A DNA stretch of 64,000 nt, taken from Lactobacillus gasseri ATCC 33323 = JCM 1131. GTDB taxonomy: Bacteria > Bacillota > Bacilli > Lactobacillales > Lactobacillaceae. Shown here piece after piece: positions 6,794 to 40,804 of the stretch. Every line of letters begins with the position of its first letter. Position 1 is the first letter of the stretch. Made by a program: the position numbers and the translations under genes. The notes under the pieces were generated by a model. The model was not told the DNA's origin, made no database searches, and worked only from the letters and a program-made list of their open reading frames with translations. The DNA is taken from contig NC_008530.1 of NCBI RefSeq assembly GCF_000014425.1, positions 1,798,001-1,862,000 of the forward strand. The letters are read 5' to 3'.

Positions 6794-8017
6794 TTACTTC
6801 CAGCCAAACCATAATGTACTCAAGAAACCTGAGAAAATTAGGAAACTGAAACAAACAACATTAAATGTTAAGAAGATCGCAAACCACTGGGTAAACTTAT
6901 TATGTGGAATTTGCTTACGGTGCTTACGCTTAAATCTTAGCCAAATATCATTAATGATAATTGCCAAAGCATGGTAAATACCATATACGATATAGTACCA
7001 CGTTAAGCCATGCCAGAAGCCCATAATTAAGAAATCTACTAAATATGCGACTTGCGATAATCTAATTCTATTCTTTACCAATTTATGCTTCATTGCAAAG
7101 AATGTAAAACGCATAAAGATAAAGTCACGGAACCAGAACGACAGAGTCATGTGCCATCTATTCCAGAAATCTTTAATATTTTGAGAAATAAATGGTTTAT
7201 TAAAGTTCATCGGAGTTCTAATTCCCATGAAATATGAAGTACCAACAGCAAATAAAGAATATCCCGCAAAGTCAAAGAAAAGGTACATACTGTAGCAGTA
7301 CATATAACCAAGAAGAGCCCAAGATAAACGTAGACCACCATTGGCTTGACCATAAAACAGTGCATCTTTAGCTAATTGCGGCAACCATAAGGTACCAAAG
7401 ATATAGCCAATAATAAATTTATACAAAAATCCTTGGAAAATATATCTTGTCCCAAATTTTAGGTTTTCAATATATTTGTCTCGCTCTGGTGCCTTATCAT
7501 AGTCTTCCTTAAATCTCCGATAACGATCAATAGGACCCGAAGAAATAGTTGGGAAGAAGAGCAGGAATCTTGCATATGTAATTGGATCGACTTTTTTAAT
7601 AGTTTTATCGCGAAGTTCCATAATAACTTGCACTGTCTTAAAAGTTAAATATGAAATTCCGAAGAACCCAATTAAATCAGCAGTCTTATTGTGTGCTAAA
7701 GGCGCAATCTTTACTGCTGCTAAAGGTAAAATTGCCAGGATAACGGCTAAACAAAAAACAGAGGTTTTATTCTTTCCAGAATTAACATATTTTTGATAAG
7801 CAAAAGTAATTAAAAATTGGAAAATAATATATCCAATCAGTTGAACTCCCTGTATCCAGTCTTTACCATTAAACATCAAAAACAAAAATAGTAATGAAAC
7901 GAAAGCTTCATAAGTCTTAAAGCGCCGACCATGATACAAACCAATAATTAATGGCAACAGCGCAATAAAAAGAATGACGAAGTAACGCGGATTACTATAT
8001 GGCTGAATGTTGATCAC
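6794..8017 (-). CDS. dltB: D-alanyl transfer MBOAT protein DltB
   Basis: Polytopic membrane O-acyltransferase (MBOAT) that passes D-alanine from DltC across the membrane. 407 residues with the conserved MBOAT histidine at about residue 336 in FWHGLTWYY, and the FWNRWHMTLS segment typical of the fold. Start overlaps the dltA stop (8014-8017), indicating coupling. Confidence 0.95.
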   Translation of the reverse strand: MINIQPYSNPRYFVILFIALLPLIIGLYHGRRFKTYEAFVSLLFLFLMFNGKDWIQGVQLIGYIIFQFLITFAYQKYVNSGKNKTSVFCLAVILAILPLAAVKIAPLAHNKTADLIGFFGISYLTFKTVQVIMELRDKTIKKVDPITYARFLLFFPTISSGPIDRYRRFKEDYDKAPERDKYIENLKFGTRYIFQGFLYKFIIGYIFGTLWLPQLAKDALFYGQANGGLRLSWALLGYMYCYSMYLFFDFAGYSLFAVGTSYFMGIRTPMNFNKPFISQNIKDFWNRWHMTLSFWFRDFIFMRFTFFAMKHKLVKNRIRLSQVAYLVDFLIMGFWHGLTWYYIVYGIYHALAIIINDIWLRFKRKHRKQIPHNKFTQWFAIFLTFNVVCFSFLIFSGFLSTLWFGWK

Positions 8018-9522
8018 GCGTTATTTACCTCCTTAATTACTTGTTTAATATCTACCTTACCGTTTTGAGAAATTGGCATTTCATCACGGTAGATAAAGCG
8101 TTGAGGAAGCATGTATGGCATAATATCTTGACTTAAAGACTCACGTAACTTTTTAGTCAATTCAGCATCATCGTACTTTTCTCGTACTCCATCAGCTAAT
8201 TCAACTACAGCCACTAATTGTTGAACCTTATGTTCTTTATTGTATTTAGGAGCAACAACGCCATAACGTACTAATGGATTCTTAGCAAGATAGAAGTTAA
8301 TTTCTTCTAGCTCAATTCGGTAACCATTGAACTTAACTTGGAAATCAATTCTTCCGCGATAAAAGAGCATATTGCCATCTAAAAATCCTAAGTCCCCAGT
8401 ACGGTAACTTGCATGCTCTCTATCTTTAAAGAAAGCAGCCTTAGTCTTTTCTGGATTATTTAAATATCCTTTTGAAACACTAGGTCCTTCAATAATAACT
8501 TCGCCTTGATCCTTTTCTTCACCTTTTGAAGTATCAATTGAAATTTTAGTATCTTCTTTAGAAACCCCAATTGGTAATCGATCATACTTATTCAAAACAT
8601 CATCAGTAATTTCTACTTGAGTAACAGCAACAGTTGTTTCTGTAGGACCGTAAGTGTTGAAAATATGGCTATCTGGGAATTTCATCTTAAGCATTTTAGC
8701 TGTCTTATGACTTAATTCTTCACCGCAGAATAGAAAATGTGTTAATTCCGGATGGTGCTTTGCATCAAAAGTTGGATCCAAAAAGCTCATCTCTACAAAT
8801 GATGGTGTTGAAACCCAAACGTTAAATTTTAATTGTGGCAAAGTCTTAAATAACTGACCTAAATTCTCAGTTACATCATGAGGTAATACTACTAGCTTGC
8901 CGCCTGCAGTTAAAGCAGGATATAGGCTCATAACAGATAAGTCAAAAGAATACGGAGCTTGTGCTAAAAAACTAGGTTGATCTGGAAGTGAAAAGTCATT
9001 TAACTCCCAATTTACAAAGCTCAGTAAATTATCATGACTAATTTGCACACCTTTAGGTTTACCGGTAGTACCTGAAGTAAAGATAATATAGAAGTTATCA
9101 TCCCCACTTACAAATTTACTTTGATCAACCGCTGTGTGATTATTAGAAACTTCCTCAGGAGTTAAAACTTTGATATTTTCCATTTCAATTGGAAGCTTAT
9201 CAATTGCAATTACCAATGGAGATTCAGAAACCTCTTGAATCATTAACAAACGTTCACTATTAGAATAGCTAGCAATCGGAATATAAGCATGTCCCGCTTT
9301 TACAGCACCAAGAAAACTGGCAATCATTTCAAAGGTTTGACCACCCCAAATCATTACTGGGGCTTTTTCAGGAAGATCTAATTCGCTAATCTTAGCTGCA
9401 TATGCATCTGAGCGAGCTTTCAAGTCTCCATAAGTATTAGTTTCGCCAAGATAATCATAGGCGATTCGGTTTGGATCTTCAGTAGCAATTTGATCGATTG
9501 TCTTGATTACATCTTTAATCAT
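8014..9522 (-). CDS. dltA: D-alanine--D-alanyl carrier protein ligase DltA
   Basis: Adenylation enzyme that activates D-alanine with ATP and loads it on DltC. 502 residues; the P-loop-like core TSGTTGKPKG lies at 149-158, the GYRIELEEI hinge follows RIDFQVKFN, and the conserved C-terminal lysine is in SQNGKVD (about 489). A GAAAGGG site precedes the ATG. Second gene of the dlt transcript, directly after dltX. Confidence 0.96.
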   Translation of the reverse strand: MIKDVIKTIDQIATEDPNRIAYDYLGETNTYGDLKARSDAYAAKISELDLPEKAPVMIWGGQTFEMIASFLGAVKAGHAYIPIASYSNSERLLMIQEVSESPLVIAIDKLPIEMENIKVLTPEEVSNNHTAVDQSKFVSGDDNFYIIFTSGTTGKPKGVQISHDNLLSFVNWELNDFSLPDQPSFLAQAPYSFDLSVMSLYPALTAGGKLVVLPHDVTENLGQLFKTLPQLKFNVWVSTPSFVEMSFLDPTFDAKHHPELTHFLFCGEELSHKTAKMLKMKFPDSHIFNTYGPTETTVAVTQVEITDDVLNKYDRLPIGVSKEDTKISIDTSKGEEKDQGEVIIEGPSVSKGYLNNPEKTKAAFFKDREHASYRTGDLGFLDGNMLFYRGRIDFQVKFNGYRIELEEINFYLAKNPLVRYGVVAPKYNKEHKVQQLVAVVELADGVREKYDDAELTKKLRESLSQDIMPYMLPQRFIYRDEMPISQNGKVDIKQVIKEVNNA

Positions 9523-9542
9523 TTAATGCGACCCTTTCAGTT

Positions 9543-9701
9543 CTAGAAATCTTTATAAATAAATTTTGCAGCCCCAATGCCGCTATATGAGTACAAGTAA
9601 ACTAGCACTACAAGCACTGCAAAGTAAAAGAGAGTTTTAGCAATAAATAAGCCGATTTCTTTTTTCTTTGTATTATTTTGCTTATCTTTATTTTCTGCCA
9701 T
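9543..9701 (-). CDS. dltX: Teichoic acid D-Ala incorporation protein DltX
   Basis: 52-residue protein (starts MAENKDKQNN, ends KFIYKDF). It has a charged N-terminus, one transmembrane helix (about 17-37) and the aromatic C-terminal end characteristic of DltX, which acts with DltB/DltD. ATG preceded by GAGGTG; 20 bases separate it from dltA. First gene of the dlt operon; too short for most ORF filters. Confidence 0.9.
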   Translation of the reverse strand: MAENKDKQNNTKKKEIGLFIAKTLFYFAVLVVLVYLYSYSGIGAAKFIYKDF

Positions 9702-10127: not shown

Positions 10128-11279
10128 TTAACCCCCTAGTAAGGCATTAATATTCGCTGATAAAATTCGGTCGACAATCATAATTTGATCACGTGCATAC
10201 GCCTTGGCACCAGATTCAAATAACATTAGTAGCTGACCATTTTGAACATAAATTTGTTCTAAGTATGGCGGCATAACTACAACTTTTTCTGCATTTCCTT
10301 CATCTAGATAGTTCAAAGCTGAAATTGGGAAAAAGTATAACTTAGAGTCCTTGCTTCCATAAGATTGGCTTAAAATAATCCAGTTTTGATAAAAGGCGAT
10401 TCCTTGAATCTGTCGATCCATTGAAGCACTTCCAGAACCTAAGGCCCAAGATACTTGACCAGTTACTGCCTTAATTTGGTCACTAGTGATTGTTCCTTTA
10501 AAGTTCCCTGAACGGGCAATCGGATAACTAGCAATTTGTCCTTGACCATCTGTATTAAAAAAGCCAACAAACAACTGATTGTCGTAATAAGTTACACAAG
10601 ATGCCCTTTCAATTGTTGGCAAAGCAATTACATTATCATATTTAATAGGTTGCTTTTTCTTATTATAACTGTATTTTTCTAATTTCTTTAATGAAAAGGA
10701 CATTAGGGCTGAAGAATCGTCTTGACTTCCTGTTACCCAAATATTTTTAGCAACTGGATCATAAGCAATACCGCCCAAATGCGGCGCTCCTGAAACTTGA
10801 ATGGTCTTTAAATACTTACCAGTTTTTTTATCTAAGCAGTAAATTACAGAACGATGAGTATGAGTTGAATCATAGGCCGTAATTAATAAATATTTACCGG
10901 CTACAGTTAATCCTTGCGGGGTCATTGTATCGGCATCTGTTAGCTTCTTTTTATTGAAATCATAGCTTGGCGTTACAACTTGTCCTGGGATTACGACACT
11001 GCTACCGATTTTACTAGCACGTGGCGTTTCATAGGCTGCACTATAGACATCAGGATACTTTTCATTCAGTAATTTCTTAAAATAGGCTAAATTATGATGA
11101 CCTGGGCTAATGCTTGTACCATCCTTTGCCTTTTCTACATCTGGTCTAGATGTAAATGTTGCTTTTGCCTGTTCTCGCTTTTGATATTGCTGATAGCCAT
11201 AGTAACCGCCATAACTAACCCCAGCAATAATTGCCAAAATTAAGATTAGTTTAAACAGAATCTTTAAAAATCTTTTCAT
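10128..11279 (-). CDS. Membrane-anchored beta-propeller-like protein
   Basis: 383 residues: one N-terminal membrane anchor (about 6-28), a lysine-rich spacer, then repeated blade-like strands (for example LLITAYDSTHTHRSVIYCLD and IWVTGSQDDSSALMSF), suggesting a secreted seven-bladed propeller domain. No catalytic motif visible. Probably displayed on the cell surface. The function is unknown; it pairs with the small membrane protein downstream. Confidence 0.7.
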   Translation of the reverse strand: MKRFLKILFKLILILAIIAGVSYGGYYGYQQYQKREQAKATFTSRPDVEKAKDGTSISPGHHNLAYFKKLLNEKYPDVYSAAYETPRASKIGSSVVIPGQVVTPSYDFNKKKLTDADTMTPQGLTVAGKYLLITAYDSTHTHRSVIYCLDKKTGKYLKTIQVSGAPHLGGIAYDPVAKNIWVTGSQDDSSALMSFSLKKLEKYSYNKKKQPIKYDNVIALPTIERASCVTYYDNQLFVGFFNTDGQGQIASYPIARSGNFKGTITSDQIKAVTGQVSWALGSGSASMDRQIQGIAFYQNWIILSQSYGSKDSKLYFFPISALNYLDEGNAEKVVVMPPYLEQIYVQNGQLLMLFESGAKAYARDQIMIVDRILSANINALLGG

Positions 11280-11396: not shown

Positions 11397-11578
11397 TATA
11401 ATATATTAATTGTAGTAGTGGATTAATAATAATTCACTGCTATTAGCATTAACATCCAACTTTTTATTTTCATTCTTACTCCTCCAAGTAGATTGAATAA
11501 TAACAAGATCAGCTTAAAGGCTGATTATCTATCTTTGAAACGACTTATGCACTTCCCAGCATAGGTCGTTTTCTTTTT
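11397..11578 (+). ncRNA. Putative structured small RNA, copy A
   Basis: A TATAAT hexamer at 11397-11402 precedes a gene-free stretch ending in a rho-independent terminator (arms ACGAC.TATGC / GCATA.GTCGT, 11540-11578, then TTTTCTTTTT). It contains a 61-bp block (11439-11499) identical to 12988-13048, then a small hairpin ATCAG/CTGAT (11508-11525). The terminator loop CTTCCCAG is shared with copy B although the stem bases differ. The block carries TTACTCCTCCAAG, complementary to a strong Shine-Dalgarno sequence. The antisense strand could encode a 15-residue peptide (MKIKSWMLMLIAVNYY begins it), not conserved in length in copy B. Confidence 0.55.
11439..11499 (+). repeat. 61-bp direct repeat, left copy
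   Basis: Identical over 61 bases to 12988-13048, same orientation, 1.55 kb apart, flanking the bacteriocin/immunity genes. It lies inside putative small RNA copy A. Confidence 0.9.
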
Positions 11579-11655
11579 AACGCATTAAAAAAGAGAATCC
11601 TGATTATGGATTCTCTTTTCTTGTATTGAGGATTGTTATAAAAAATCTTGTGCAT

Positions 11656-12000
11656 TTACCAGATACCAAATTGATTGATTAATTTGAATATTATCTCGTT
11701 CTTTTGTAATTTTTTATCGGTTGGGTGCACAAACAAATTCCATGCTTCTGATTGTTTTTTAGAAAGACGCAGTCCTCTAAAAGCAAGTGCGTCATTAATG
11801 TAGCTCATTGTTTTTCCAACTCGAACAGATAAGGTTATTCCCTCATACTTCTTATTCTGTAAATCAAATATTGTTTCATCAATAACTTGATATAACTCAG
11901 TAAAATCAGTAAATTTATTTAAATCTCCATATGGCTCATGTTTTAATTGATACTCTAAATTTTTAAGCAATACAATTGCTTCTTTAACTTCTGCTTCCAT
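11656..12000 (-). CDS. Bacteriocin immunity protein (EntA_Immun-like)
   Basis: 114-residue, helical, soluble protein starting MEAEVKEAIVLL, of the size and helix pattern of pediocin/enterocin A immunity proteins, which protect the producer's mannose-PTS. The ATG at 12000 follows the bacteriocin stop (12003-12005) by two bases; a GTG at 12015 is a less likely start as no spaced ribosome binding site precedes it. Same transcript as the bacteriocin, which is the main support for the assignment. Confidence 0.7.
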   Translation of the reverse strand: MEAEVKEAIVLLKNLEYQLKHEPYGDLNKFTDFTELYQVIDETIFDLQNKKYEGITLSVRVGKTMSYINDALAFRGLRLSKKQSEAWNLFVHPTDKKLQKNEIIFKLINQFGIW

Positions 12001-12002
12001 AT

Positions 12003-12290
12003 TTATCTTGGCCACCCTCTACCACCACTAATAAATCCTGTGGCAGCACTATTAGCCATATTATTAATTGTACTACTTACTACACCGCCCCAATTAACTC
12101 TACATTTACCATTTTTTAGTGTAGTTGGTCCATAAGAATATCCCTTTCTACATTCCACGTTTGATCCCCACGGCATTGGATCATACCAGCCGGGAGTAGC
12201 AGCAGAAACGGTATTACTGCTAAAGTATAATGCAGCTCCTGTCATAACAGGAATAAATGCAGTCGCTAAGAATAATTTACTCTTTTTCAT
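12003..12290 (-). CDS. Sec-secreted class II (pediocin-like) bacteriocin precursor
   Basis: 95-residue precursor. A Sec-type signal peptide (MKKSKLFLATAFIPVMTG, cleavage likely after NTVSA at residue 30) leaves a mature peptide of about 65 residues. The mature part holds two cysteines, and the region KCRVNWGGVVSS followed by an Ala/Gly-rich helix matches the KCWVNWGEA core and C-terminal helix of class IIa peptides such as enterocin P. The usual YGNGV box is replaced by YSYGPTT, so it is divergent. I start at the ATG at 12290 after GGAGGTAAATATC; the longer frame would place five residues before the signal peptide. Confidence 0.75.
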   Translation of the reverse strand: MKKSKLFLATAFIPVMTGAALYFSSNTVSAATPGWYDPMPWGSNVECRKGYSYGPTTLKNGKCRVNWGGVVSSTINNMANSAATGFISGGRGWPR

Positions 12291-12373
12291 GATATTTACC
12301 TCCAAGTTTAGAAAAAAAGTTTTAAAAGTTTGTTTTTTAAGAAAGCGCCTTCATCTAATTAAATTTTATCATA

Positions 12374-12487
12374 CCAATTATAAATATCAATTAAATTTTT
12401 AAATATATATTTCAATATTATCTACTTTTGTACAAGTGATTTATCCGTTAGGATTCTACGTTAATATTAGTAGCATACCAATTATAC
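12374..12487. promoter_or_regulatory. Divergent bacteriocin/immunity intergenic region with repeated ACCAATTATA
   Basis: Between the bacteriocin (minus) and the second immunity gene (plus). The decamer ACCAATTATA, within CATACCAATTATA, occurs near 12376 and 12478 in the same orientation. It may be a regulator site or a promoter part. No histidine kinase/response regulator is encoded in this window. Confidence 0.3.
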
Positions 12488-12588
12488 ATTTTCACCAAAA
12501 AACAATTGTATAAAGTCAGCTTTCATAATACGATTATCTTATAAAGAAGAATTCTTAAATTTGTTGAAATATACAGAAGGTGAAAAAG

Positions 12589-12873
12589 ATGGTTTCTAAA
12601 GATACAATTATTGCTACAATGACCGATTTAGTAAACTCACTTAATGAAACAAATCCAAGTTCAGAATTTACTAACTTTCTTGCAGACAGTCTAGCAACTA
12701 TTAAATCAAGCAATGGCGTTGCTTTCACGGGTCAGCTTCAATATTTCTTCAATCGCGCACCAGTTGTAAAATTTTCTGATAATATCACTTTTACTCCTGA
12801 AGAAGAAAAGCTATACCATAAACTCCTCTCTCTAAACGAGTTAGGAAACAACCTTTGGGGCGCAAGTTTATAA
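12589..12873 (+). CDS. Second bacteriocin immunity-like protein
   Basis: 94 residues starting MVSKDTIIATMTDL; the C-terminal half FTPEEEKLYHKLLSL... matches the pattern of EntA/pediocin-type immunity proteins. ATG at 12589 preceded by AGAAGG at a spacing of 8; the GTG at 12580 overlaps that ribosome binding site and is rejected. Divergent from the bacteriocin gene, with no bacteriocin of its own next to it, so it may be an orphan giving cross-immunity. Confidence 0.7.
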   Translation: MVSKDTIIATMTDLVNSLNETNPSSEFTNFLADSLATIKSSNGVAFTGQLQYFFNRAPVVKFSDNITFTPEEEKLYHKLLSLNELGNNLWGASL

Positions 12874-12944
12874 TTTATCCCAACTTCTTTAACAAATTTA
12901 ACTTTTTTAATAAAAAACGTCACAATTTGTTCACATTTTCCCTC

Positions 12945-13120
12945 TAATATATAAACCATAGCAACGGGGGAAAACAAAAACCCCATCGCTATTAGCATTA
13001 ACATCCAACTTTTTATTTTCATTCTTACTCCTCCAAGTAGATTGAATACATTTATCAGTCTTTGACTGATCCTATACTTATATATCTAAAATCCGCGTCT
13101 TTCCCAGCGCGGATTTTTTT
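12945..13120 (+). ncRNA. Putative structured small RNA, copy B
   Basis: Same architecture as copy A: AT-rich promoter-like TAATATATAA (12945-12954), GC-rich CGGGG/CCCC hairpin (12965-12984), the identical 61-bp block (12988-13048), hairpin ATCAG/CTGAT (13054-13070), then terminator AAATCCGCG / CGCGGATTT with loop CTTTCCCAG and seven T (13088-13119). Stem sequences of the terminator differ from copy A while the loop is kept, which suggests selection on RNA structure. The antisense frame starting MKIKSWMLML runs into the immunity gene and is unlikely to be a real long protein. Confidence 0.55.
12988..13048 (+). repeat. 61-bp direct repeat, right copy
   Basis: Perfect match to 11439-11499. With that copy it brackets the bacteriocin and both immunity genes; recombination between them would delete the island. 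Confidence 0.9.
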
Positions 13121-13209
13121 GTGGGCTTATTTCCAAGACTTTCCTATAATAGAAGTGAAAGGGAATACAAATTTTAGAAATTAGTTATTTAAGCATAGGA
13201 AGGATTATT

Positions 13210-13698
13210 ATGTTCTCACCATCTATTCAATCTTTGATTGAAGAAAAAGCAGGTTCATTTATCATCCCTGCCTCTAGAATTGCATTCGTAGAAGATGAAA
13301 ATCCACTCTACCATGCTTTTTTAATTCTTACTAAAATGAAATACTCAAAAATTCCAGTTTTAGATAAGAATCAAAAAGTAGTGGGTTTAATCAGTTTGGC
13401 AATGATTACAGATAAGATGCTAACGCCTGATAATATCGTTATCGAACCTTTATCAGACTTAAAAGTCAAAGATGTAATGCAAACAGATTTTGAAACGATC
13501 AACTTTGCGCATACTAATCTTGAGACGCAGCTACATCTTTTAGTTGACAATCCTTTTGTTCCAGTTGTAAATGACAACAATATTTTTCAAGGATTACTTA
13601 CAAGAAGAGAATGGATTAAGGCGTTTAATTACGTAACTCATTCAATTGATGATAAATATGACATTACTAAGAAGAGCAAGCCAAGCGAAACAAACTAA
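13210..13698 (+). CDS. cbpB: CBS-domain protein, CbpB/DarB-like
   Basis: 162 residues with two CBS motifs (about 20-75 and 88-145). The N-terminus (FIIPASRIAFVEDENPLYHAFLILTK) matches the CbpB/DarB family, which binds cyclic di-AMP and in relatives controls the (p)ppGpp synthetase Rel or other partners. ATG preceded by AGGAAGGA. It stands between small RNA copy B and the P1B ATPase. Confidence 0.8.
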   Translation: MFSPSIQSLIEEKAGSFIIPASRIAFVEDENPLYHAFLILTKMKYSKIPVLDKNQKVVGLISLAMITDKMLTPDNIVIEPLSDLKVKDVMQTDFETINFAHTNLETQLHLLVDNPFVPVVNDNNIFQGLLTRREWIKAFNYVTHSIDDKYDITKKSKPSETN

Positions 13699-39582: not shown

Positions 39583-39871
39583 CAAAATCCTCCAGTAATT
39601 TAAAAATTGAAGCACTATTTATTGTACCAAAGTAAAAATCATATACAAGATATTGTAGTGTAAAAAATTGAATTTTTTATTTTGAAATTTTTTATATTTT
39701 AAATTACGCGAAAAACGCGCATTATACGTAGCTTTTGTATATATAAAATACGGATATATACGTACATTATAAAGAATAATGTTTATAATTATTCATATTT
39801 TTCCTTGAATTACGATTAATAGTCTGCTATCTTTAAATCGTCAACTTCATTAAATAGTTCTGGAGGAAAAA

Positions 39872-40804
39872 ATGAAGATAAAGAAATTTTTGATTGGCGC
39901 TGCTATGGTTTTACTCGCTGCAACAAGTGCAGCTTGCTCGAACAGTAAATCTGCTTCTAAATCAAGCGATGGTTATACTCCTAAGGAGTTAAACGTTCAA
40001 TTCGTTCCTAGTGTCCAAGCTTCTAAGCTTGAAGCTAAAGCTAAACCATTACAGGGTTTACTTGAAAAGCAATTACACATGCCCGTTCACGTAACTGTTT
40101 CAACTGATAATTCCGCTTTGGTTGAAGCAATGGCATCTAAGAAAGTTGATGTCGGTTTCTTACCACCTGATGCTTATGTTTTAGCTCACAAACGTGGTGT
40201 AGCTGACGTTTTACTTCAGGCACAACGCTATGGCTACGATGAACCAAGTGGTAAGCAAAATCATAAATTGATGGATAGCTACCGTTCAATGATCGTTGTT
40301 AAAAAAGGATCTAAGATTAAGTCTTGGAAAGACCTTAAAGGTAAAACTATCGCAGTTCAAGACCCAACTTCTACTTCTGGCTATGTCCTACCAATTGCCG
40401 AACTTCACAAGAAAGGTTTAAATGTACCAAAGGATTGTAAGTTAGTTCAAGTTAAGGGACACGATCAAGCTGTTTTATCAGTTTATAACGGAGACGCTGA
40501 CGCTGCCTTTGTCTTCTCAGACGCTCGTCCACTTGCTGCTAAGGATGCACCAGCTGTAATGAAGGATGTTGTTCCAATTTACTTCACTAAGTACATTCCA
40601 AACGATACTGTTTCAGTTAGAAGTGGTATGTCTAAGTCATTCAAAAAGAAGCTTGCTAAAGCATTCAAGGATATTGCTAAGACTAAGAAAGGCAAGAAGA
40701 TCCTTGAAAACATTTACCAACACTATGGCTATGTAGATTCTAAAGACTCTAACTTCAATATTGTTCGTGAATATGAAGCTGAAGCTAAAAAAGCTCAAAA
40801 ATAA
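39872..40804 (+). CDS. PhnD-like phosphate/phosphonate-binding lipoprotein
   Basis: 310 residues: signal with lipobox TSAAC, then PhnD-type binding domain (LNVQFVPSVQA, VDVGFLPPDAYVLA, QDPTSTSGYVLP). Binds phosphonate, phosphite or related oxyanions. The partner PhnC/PhnE genes are absent here. GGAGG precedes the ATG. The 289-bp AT-rich gap upstream holds divergent promoters. Confidence 0.85.
   Translation: MKIKKFLIGAAMVLLAATSAACSNSKSASKSSDGYTPKELNVQFVPSVQASKLEAKAKPLQGLLEKQLHMPVHVTVSTDNSALVEAMASKKVDVGFLPPDAYVLAHKRGVADVLLQAQRYGYDEPSGKQNHKLMDSYRSMIVVKKGSKIKSWKDLKGKTIAVQDPTSTSGYVLPIAELHKKGLNVPKDCKLVQVKGHDQAVLSVYNGDADAAFVFSDARPLAAKDAPAVMKDVVPIYFTKYIPNDTVSVRSGMSKSFKKKLAKAFKDIAKTKKGKKILENIYQHYGYVDSKDSNFNIVREYEAEAKKAQK

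Follow-up and report, generated by a model that had tools for sequence, protein, structure and literature searches.

A tandem RNA pair in Lactobacillus gasseri belongs to a genus-wide family of structured, putatively anti-Shine-Dalgarno small RNAs

We analysed a 64,000-nt stretch of the Lactobacillus gasseri ATCC 33323 chromosome (NC_008530.1, positions 1,798,001 to 1,862,000; hereafter the window, whose own numbering is used unless stated otherwise), in which an initial annotation made from the letters alone had noticed a duplicated structured element at 11397-11578 and 12945-13120. This duplication is confirmed as a real observation, and recurrence across the genus together with covariation excludes chance as the source of the two-copy pattern. 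We conclude from sequence comparison that the two copies are members of an RNA family found throughout the genus Lactobacillus, and not an isolated duplication. We further suggest, as a probable reading that still leaves room for doubt, that they are trans-acting small RNAs (sRNAs) of ~160–170 nt which block translation starts, with an OmpR-family operator at many of the members, including copy 2. What the DNA itself shows is the family with its covarying stems, its link to the operator, its synteny and a CCUCC that folding predicts to be exposed.

The identity between the copies extends over exactly 61 nt at 100% (11439-11499 against 12988-13048; positions 43-103 of the query 11397-11578, E 1.3e-25), as had been claimed, and at an E-value of 0.001 the whole genome (a single contig of 1,894,360 bases) yields those two copies only. 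Their parts come in the same order: the -10 box is followed by a 5' hairpin and the core, after which come the ATCAG/CTGAT hairpin and a terminator whose loop includes TTCCCAG; each copy, having its own -10 box and terminator, is a predicted transcription unit. The succession of ATCAG/CTGAT hairpin and TTCCCAG-loop terminator had been recognised in the initial annotation, but the 5' hairpin ahead of the core and a predicted core hairpin with a CCTCC loop had been absent from it. The copy starts that it gave (11397 and 12945) coincide with the opening base of each -10 box, and the RNAs themselves are therefore expected to begin ~10 nt later. The terminator stems are indeed unrelated in sequence and still pair, but taken alone this is weak evidence, because any terminator pairs.

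A 37-nt heart of the core, with up to 3 mismatches allowed, was found in 13/75 genomes of the genus, always with 0 mismatches and in 2 or 3 copies each (28 in total); an exact scan of named genomes located this heart in uncultured Lactobacillus and in L. rodentium, L. taiwanensis, L. johnsonii and L. hominis. Alignment A2, which consists of 21 distinct copies picked from these 28 gasseri-clade copies, contains 51 consecutive invariant core columns with variable flanks on both sides. This invariance is limited to the gasseri/johnsonii clade, and the core diverges in other Lactobacillus. A covariance model built from the 21 copies matched, at a threshold of E 0.1, 66/75 genus genomes, 53 of the 66 lying outside the 13 core-pattern genomes, and 60/60 of those with completeness of at least 90% and contamination of at most 5%. 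Such a search of relatives had been proposed in the initial annotation, together with the prospect that other genomes might show the core without its flanking stems; instead, the stems are present in relatives and covary. At least two matches were obtained in 59 of the 66 genomes, often ~240 bp apart, and a few third matches at E ~0.06–0.09 look like chance. Outside the core-pattern set many genomes carry tandem copies of two types, both of which retain the U-rich stretch and ACUCCUCCAA. Members were further compared in alignment A4 (55 members, window copy 2 being left out because its locus also contains the end of copy 1) and in the genus-wide alignment A5 (45 of the 55).

The claim that a structured plus-strand RNA is under selection as RNA is supported by covariation, by the presence of the stems in relatives and by a minus-strand frame that is not conserved. 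In A2, 94.6% of cells are paired under the proposed structure, versus 28–42% with partners slid by 1–3 columns. Cells changed on both sides number 66 against a shuffle mean of 21.3 (0/500 shuffles as high), with 14 pairs changed on both sides; the number of further pair types was not unusual (74/500 shuffles). These both-side changes fall in three elements, namely the terminator and the 5' and ATCAG/GTCAG hairpins, and in 6/21 sequences the ATCAG/CTGAT hairpin has AU replaced by GC on both sides. The 5' hairpin and the ATCAG/GTCAG helix are stronger structural evidence than the terminator stems. Among the members of A4, the central loop pentamer (CCUCC, with CCUUC in two of them) has a predicted unpaired probability of >0.8 in 54/55, the z-score of the central hairpin has a median of -2.1 and falls below -1 in 43/55, and that of the 5' region has a median of -3.35 and falls below -1 in 54/55.

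Many promoters of the family carry a (T/G)TCACA-N5-TTCACA repeat ending 9 nt ahead of the -10 box. Hexamer direct repeats with 5-nt spacing are typical of OmpR-family response regulators, and by analogy this operator is probably a site for a regulator of that type. The exact pattern TCACA-N5-TTCACA-N9-TAnnnT occurs at two places in the L. gasseri genome, copy 2 and a site before a 35-codon open reading frame (ORF); at 2 mismatches the operator pattern is not specific there, with 21 sites vs 14 for the reversed pattern. Across 16 chosen genomes, 19 exact operator sites were found in 12 of them, compared with 0 for the reversed pattern, and 15/19 precede RNAs of the family (10 of the 19 were inspected in sequence, the other 9 coincide with known RNA positions). 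Two of the 15 (L184, L193) belong to a further RNA subtype (CUCCCCC) in g38 genomes, in which ACUCCCCC replaces ACUCCUCC. An operator score of at least 10/12 bases was reached by 32/55 aligned copies, as opposed to 9/1100 shuffles. A Pho box was also considered; no inspected exact site stood before a recognised phosphate gene. At the second exact site of the L. gasseri genome (L132, genome positions 499931-499961, outside the window), the 35-codon ORF behind the operator, MKLLLVLGVSAMAVLAANAAIVNKPVPVPVKVRRK, has a counterpart in a relative (L195) and might be a small peptide, secreted or in the membrane, that this regulator also controls.

Beyond these observations, we infer transcription of the RNAs, repression of targets, and the identity and signal of the regulator. 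In the predicted RNA, a 5' hairpin and a CU-rich stretch lead to a CCUCC-loop hairpin, behind which lie a third hairpin and a terminator that contains UUCCCAG as a second C-rich site. Target mRNAs would be contacted at their Shine-Dalgarno sequence by the CCUCC loop, and pairing could then extend into the adjacent U-rich and anti-start-codon bases, which complement starts of the form GGAGG-N-AUGAAAAUAAAA, so as to block ribosome entry. Secreted proteins and substrate-binding lipoproteins would be the likeliest targets. An OmpR-family response regulator bound to TCACA-N5-TTCACA just upstream of the -10 box probably switches on many of the members, including copy 2; copy 1, being without the operator, would be expressed differently. 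If this is true, the Lactobacillaceae, which are food and gut bacteria, carry an unnamed post-transcriptional regulon aimed at translation starts, and the covariance seed, promoter motif and candidate targets supplied here make it possible to test directly how probiotic lactobacilli regulate their surface proteins and uptake systems.

The exposed sequence complementary to Shine-Dalgarno and start codon that blocking of translation starts calls for is present, being predicted as unpaired in nearly all members and pairing with gene starts above controls. When a 49-nt seed was paired with the 47 predicted gene starts of the window, using 40 shuffled seeds and intragenic sites as controls, the mean was -14.4 kcal/mol, compared with -12.1 (standard deviation 0.5) for shuffled seeds, 0/40 of which were as good, and -9.2 for intragenic sites, although part of the gain over shuffles is built in, because CCUCC pairs with any good Shine-Dalgarno sequence. 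The first-ranked predicted target is a PhnD-like (phosphonate-type) binding lipoprotein at 39872 (-23.1 kcal/mol), and a solute-binding protein at 39585 ranks fourth. In genome G022, a 21-mer is perfectly complementary across the Shine-Dalgarno sequence and start codon of one gene outside the RNAs, coding for a protein of 502 aa plus with a signal-peptide-like start and Pfam coiled-coil matches below cutoff, and genome G059 has the same 21-nt target site with 1 mismatch.

The built-in part of that gain is one of several points that weigh against the proposed blocking of translation starts. Neither rank 2, an uncharacterised ORF of 119 aa, nor rank 3, which resembles P-type ATPases, is a surface binding protein. 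The 21-nt target site is not in the L. gasseri genome, where the best other match to the 21-mer has 3 mismatches (one such site is in what we take to be an endonuclease III-like gene); the remaining non-sRNA sites of the 21-mer across 13 genomes all have 3 mismatches as well, as does each of the three sites outside RNA loci that a 23-mer of the other copy type found in 15 further genomes. The 51-nt invariant block exceeds the length that an anti-Shine-Dalgarno seed needs. The central hairpin shows no covariation in A2, because it is invariant there, and RNAalifold gave no consensus pairs on A5, so that the genus-wide model used for the search termed R2 is sequence-only. As for the operator, copy 1 and four aligned gasseri-group counterparts score only 6 or 7 and thus are without it, in other Lactobacillus the downstream TTCACA is often all that the second copy type retains (scores 7–9), and 4/19 exact sites have no clear family RNA downstream (L181; L190; L195, which precedes a 35-aa ORF; and L198, in or near a gene).

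A CBS-domain gene closely follows copy 2 on the same strand, an arrangement in which copy 2 could be the 5' leader of that gene, with copy 1 as the leader peptide region of the neighbouring divergent gene of 383 aa. Synteny in much of the genus agrees with such cis-acting leaders: in 3-kb loci from 38 of the 66 matched genus genomes (loci pooled per genome), a homologue of the CBS gene or the 383-aa gene was found in 38/38 and both in 23/38, and the CBS gene lies directly downstream at one locus of another genus (L107). However, this locus is the only one among 20 from other genera with the CBS gene within its flanks, the 383-aa gene being found at 0; the copies are also repeated, every one with a -10 box and a terminator to itself, and we consider a leader function unlikely. 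The RNAs might also act as a protein sponge or as secreted RNA instead of pairing with mRNA, in that single-stranded CU-rich sequence, present in several copies, could sequester an RNA-binding protein, and a precedent exists in Rli32, which according to a review binds SpoVG and induces interferon when secreted (PMC8079631). The 51-nt invariant block and the complementarity to translation starts instead point to RNA-RNA pairing, if without proof, and to our minds make a sponge or secreted RNA quite improbable.

The minus strand of the core reads as a good ribosome-binding site, an ATG and a hydrophobic start MKIKSWMLML, from which a type I toxin-antitoxin system can be envisaged, with a small membrane peptide (MKIKSWMLMLIA...) encoded there and the plus-strand RNA as the antisense antitoxin; the copies are in tandem, and some type I toxin-antitoxin systems are tandem too. 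Past 10–12 residues, however, the peptides of the 28 copies (two truncated at contig ends) diverge in sequence, frame and length (12 to >40 aa), and the frames seen beyond the genus are different once more (MKNFRLCYS, MKKLGW..., MK), while the invariance of wobble positions is unexplained by coding. No conserved hydrophobic peptide was found opposite the RNA (minus-strand promoters were not searched for), and we reject a toxin-antitoxin system as very unlikely because the minus-strand peptide frame decays. Two copies with an identical stretch, at a spacing that differs among species, would also fit a DNA repeat or mobile element that was duplicated recently and has no function as RNA, but such an origin is strongly contradicted by the covarying stems and by a position conserved through the genus. 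The 33-nt core pattern, searched for exactly, had no match in viral contigs, copy 2 had no near match in plasmids, and matches were short and partial, of copy 1 in plasmids and of copy 2 in phages, which leaves this explanation scarcely credible.

The coordinates of the two RNAs, their parts and the two syntenic markers are given in Table 1. The spacing between tandem copies ranges from ~0.25 kb to 6 kb (G020, G022, G023 and the L. gasseri genome itself), and with this variable distance the tandem RNAs look like a possible insertion spot for gene cargo; DNA between two csRNAs is mentioned in PMC8186281. In G023, a stretch resembling the terminator of copy 1 stands alone ~300 bp ahead of copy 2 (L020 1147-1267) and is perhaps a recombination footprint. 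Between the copies in the window, the minus strand at 11656-12305 encodes two proteins, one of 95-100 aa that carries two cysteines and a Sec-type signal peptide, the other a 119-aa partner; Pfam gave no family for either, and the two look like a bacteriocin/immunity pair inserted between the repeats. Genes at 6794-9701 are, we presume, dlt genes. Elsewhere in the window, Rfam matches above cutoff include a Na+ riboswitch (RF03071, 15723-15773) and a purine riboswitch (RF00167, 62366-62463), which presumably precede a cation antiporter-like gene and a permease-like gene, respectively.

Table 1. Positions in the window of the two predicted small RNAs, their parts and the flanking syntenic genes
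Feature	Position	Strand	Basis
Syntenic marker upstream, divergent, 383 aa, no Pfam family	10128..11279	-	Pfam search, synteny test
-10 box TATAAT, copy 1	11397..11402	+	Sequence; upstream TTCACA repeat absent (best operator score 6/12)
Predicted small RNA copy 1, class A	11406..11577	+	Covariance-model match extent, 143.9 bits (training sequence of the model)
5' hairpin, copy 1	11412..11443	+	Minimum free energy (MFE) fold
61-nt core, copy 1, including CCUCC-loop hairpin	11439..11499	+	Identity to copy 2
CAT (anti-AUG), copy 1	few nt upstream of 11479..11485	+	Sequence
CTCCTCC anti-Shine-Dalgarno, copy 1	11479..11485	+	CCUCC in predicted hairpin loop; unpaired probability 1.00
ATCAG/CTGAT hairpin, copy 1	11508..11525	+	Sequence; covariation among relatives
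Terminator hairpin, copy 1, TTCCCAG in loop	11537..11572	+	-18.4 kcal/mol
Operator GTCACA-N5-TTCACA ahead of copy 2, candidate OmpR-family response-regulator site	12919..12935	+	Pattern scans and scoring
-10 box TAATAT, copy 2	12945..12950	+	Sequence; relatives keep spacing
Predicted small RNA copy 2, class B	12952..13125	+	Covariance-model match extent, 154.2 bits (training sequence of the model)
5' hairpin, copy 2	12958..12992	+	MFE fold
61-nt core, copy 2	12988..13048	+	Identity to copy 1
CCUCC loop, copy 2	13030..13034	+	MFE fold
ATCAG/CTGAT hairpin, copy 2	13054..13070	+	Sequence; covariation among relatives
Terminator hairpin and T tract, copy 2, TTTCCCAG in loop	13089..13119	+	-13.5 kcal/mol
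Syntenic marker downstream, CBS-domain protein	13210..13698	+	PF00571, synteny test

Beyond the genus, the strict pattern TTCACA-N70-100-ACTCCTCCAA matched 119/397 Lactobacillaceae genomes from 15/40 genera, a count that includes chance matches (e.g. G381:C1:2570289 and G445:C2:8892), compared with 7/397 for the reversed pattern; in the order, it matched 60/395 genomes (7/395 reversed), and many singletons outside the family look like chance. This stricter count is preferred to the sequence-only R2 tally of 179/397 genomes and 30/40 genera, which is an overcount because some of its core-confined matches are ordinary gene starts read in antisense (L120-L123, L125). Inspection of 20 R2 places and 10 strict-pattern places revealed loci from 12 other Lactobacillaceae genera with, more or less fully, a TTCACA promoter, a 5' hairpin and a CAACUUUUUCAUUUU-like stretch, then ACUCCUCC with its hairpin, further C-rich motifs and a terminator. 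Similar parts were seen in two other families of the order, where the L209/L220 pair folds without a CCUCC hairpin. The RNAs described here may be distant relatives of enterococcal and listerial sRNAs.

At Rfam gathering scores no family was found over the RNA region of the window, and to this extent the initial statement that no named family has this layout holds; the working layout is nevertheless that of LhrC and the csRNAs, and distant relatives match Ref84 below threshold. Whole-model alignments to Ref84 (Enterococcus sRNA 84, RF02846) were obtained for relatives in other families of the order (L217, 40.1; L210, 37.4; L219, 33.0 bits), taking in the U-rich stretch, a UUUACUC/GAGUAAA hairpin, ACUCCUU and the terminator. 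All remain below the gathering score of 52, the best of them (40.1) lying outside Lactobacillaceae; the window copies were unmatched, and the hairpin loop of Ref84 is UUAUU, without CCUCC. The rli32 model of Listeria (RF01468) gave weak whole-model matches to two loci of the Lactobacillaceae genus g38 (28.1 and 23.8 bits) and one of genus g12 in that family (27.7), the likeness being most apparent in ACCCUAcuCCUUU and the C-rich terminator loop, but these are far below its gathering score of 100 and the window copies were again unmatched. Rli32 is described as VirR-dependent (PMC8079631). Because comparable or better E-values were also obtained for unrelated families in these searches, the Ref84 and rli32 matches are suggestive only, hinting at an old common family without establishing it. 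Among such matches near relatives, BSnc120 (1.6e-4), rli40 (0.013), SurA (0.014) and ncr1175 (0.035; L114 RNA) were set aside, as were Leu_leader, MicF, STnc50 and others at low threshold in the window, which track terminators and U-rich stretches.

It is tempting, if rather doubtful, to see in the Lactobacillaceae RNAs, Ref84 and rli32 one ancient multicopy anti-Shine-Dalgarno family across Lactobacillales, with an OmpR-type regulator and the TCACA-N5-TTCACA operator. Such a family would be hidden from sequence search because nothing but the promoter repeat and a hairpin whose loop is C-rich would have been kept, and, if true, it would constitute a shared envelope-stress riboregulon. Among the articles listed by a literature search in PMC, supplements not covered, there was no description of the present RNA family. 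For L. casei BL23, 307 putative sRNAs have been listed, two of which resembled Enterococcus sRNA families, and BLAST profiling by the same authors gave no homologue for L. acidophilus NCFM (PMC8220740); some of these sRNAs may belong to the family described here.

The closest parallels are functional. The LhrC family of Listeria monocytogenes comprises LhrC1-5, Rli22 and Rli33-1 (PMC4132741, PMC8079631); its members are multicopy RNAs of 105-121 nt with two stem-loops and with UCCC in a loop, a single strand and the terminator loop (PMC4132741). LhrC1-5 depend on the LisRK two-component system, and the family represses surface proteins (lapB, oppA) by pairing at the ribosome-binding site (PMC4132741, PMC8079631), and LisR has, as that LhrC paper puts it, no known consensus (PMC4132741). 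The RNAs in question here are likewise multicopy, with C-rich motifs in a loop, a single strand and the terminator loop; the sequence UCCC stands in the UUCCCAG terminator loops of classes A and B and in a single-stranded AUCCC of other gasseri-clade copies, but the main loop is CCUCC, not UCCC. Rfam contains an LhrC model, and LhrC was absent among the matches of the Rfam scans run on the window and relatives. The csRNAs of streptococci (CiaR-dependent, RF02379) gave a sole, chance-level match to the window, elsewhere (11589-11675, minus strand, 21.1 bits, E 9.1). They exist as several similar copies with a shared part complementary to ribosome-binding site and AUG, and with a CiaR repeat TTTAAG-N5-TTTAAG (PMC8186281). 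A promoter hexamer direct repeat with 5-nt spacing at a similar place is what they have in common with our RNAs, in which, in contrast, the repeat is TCACA-N5-TTCACA. By analogy, the best reading is that these RNAs would work like LhrC and the csRNAs, blocking translation initiation by means of C-rich loops; if true, this would offer a non-pathogen model for LhrC-type control.

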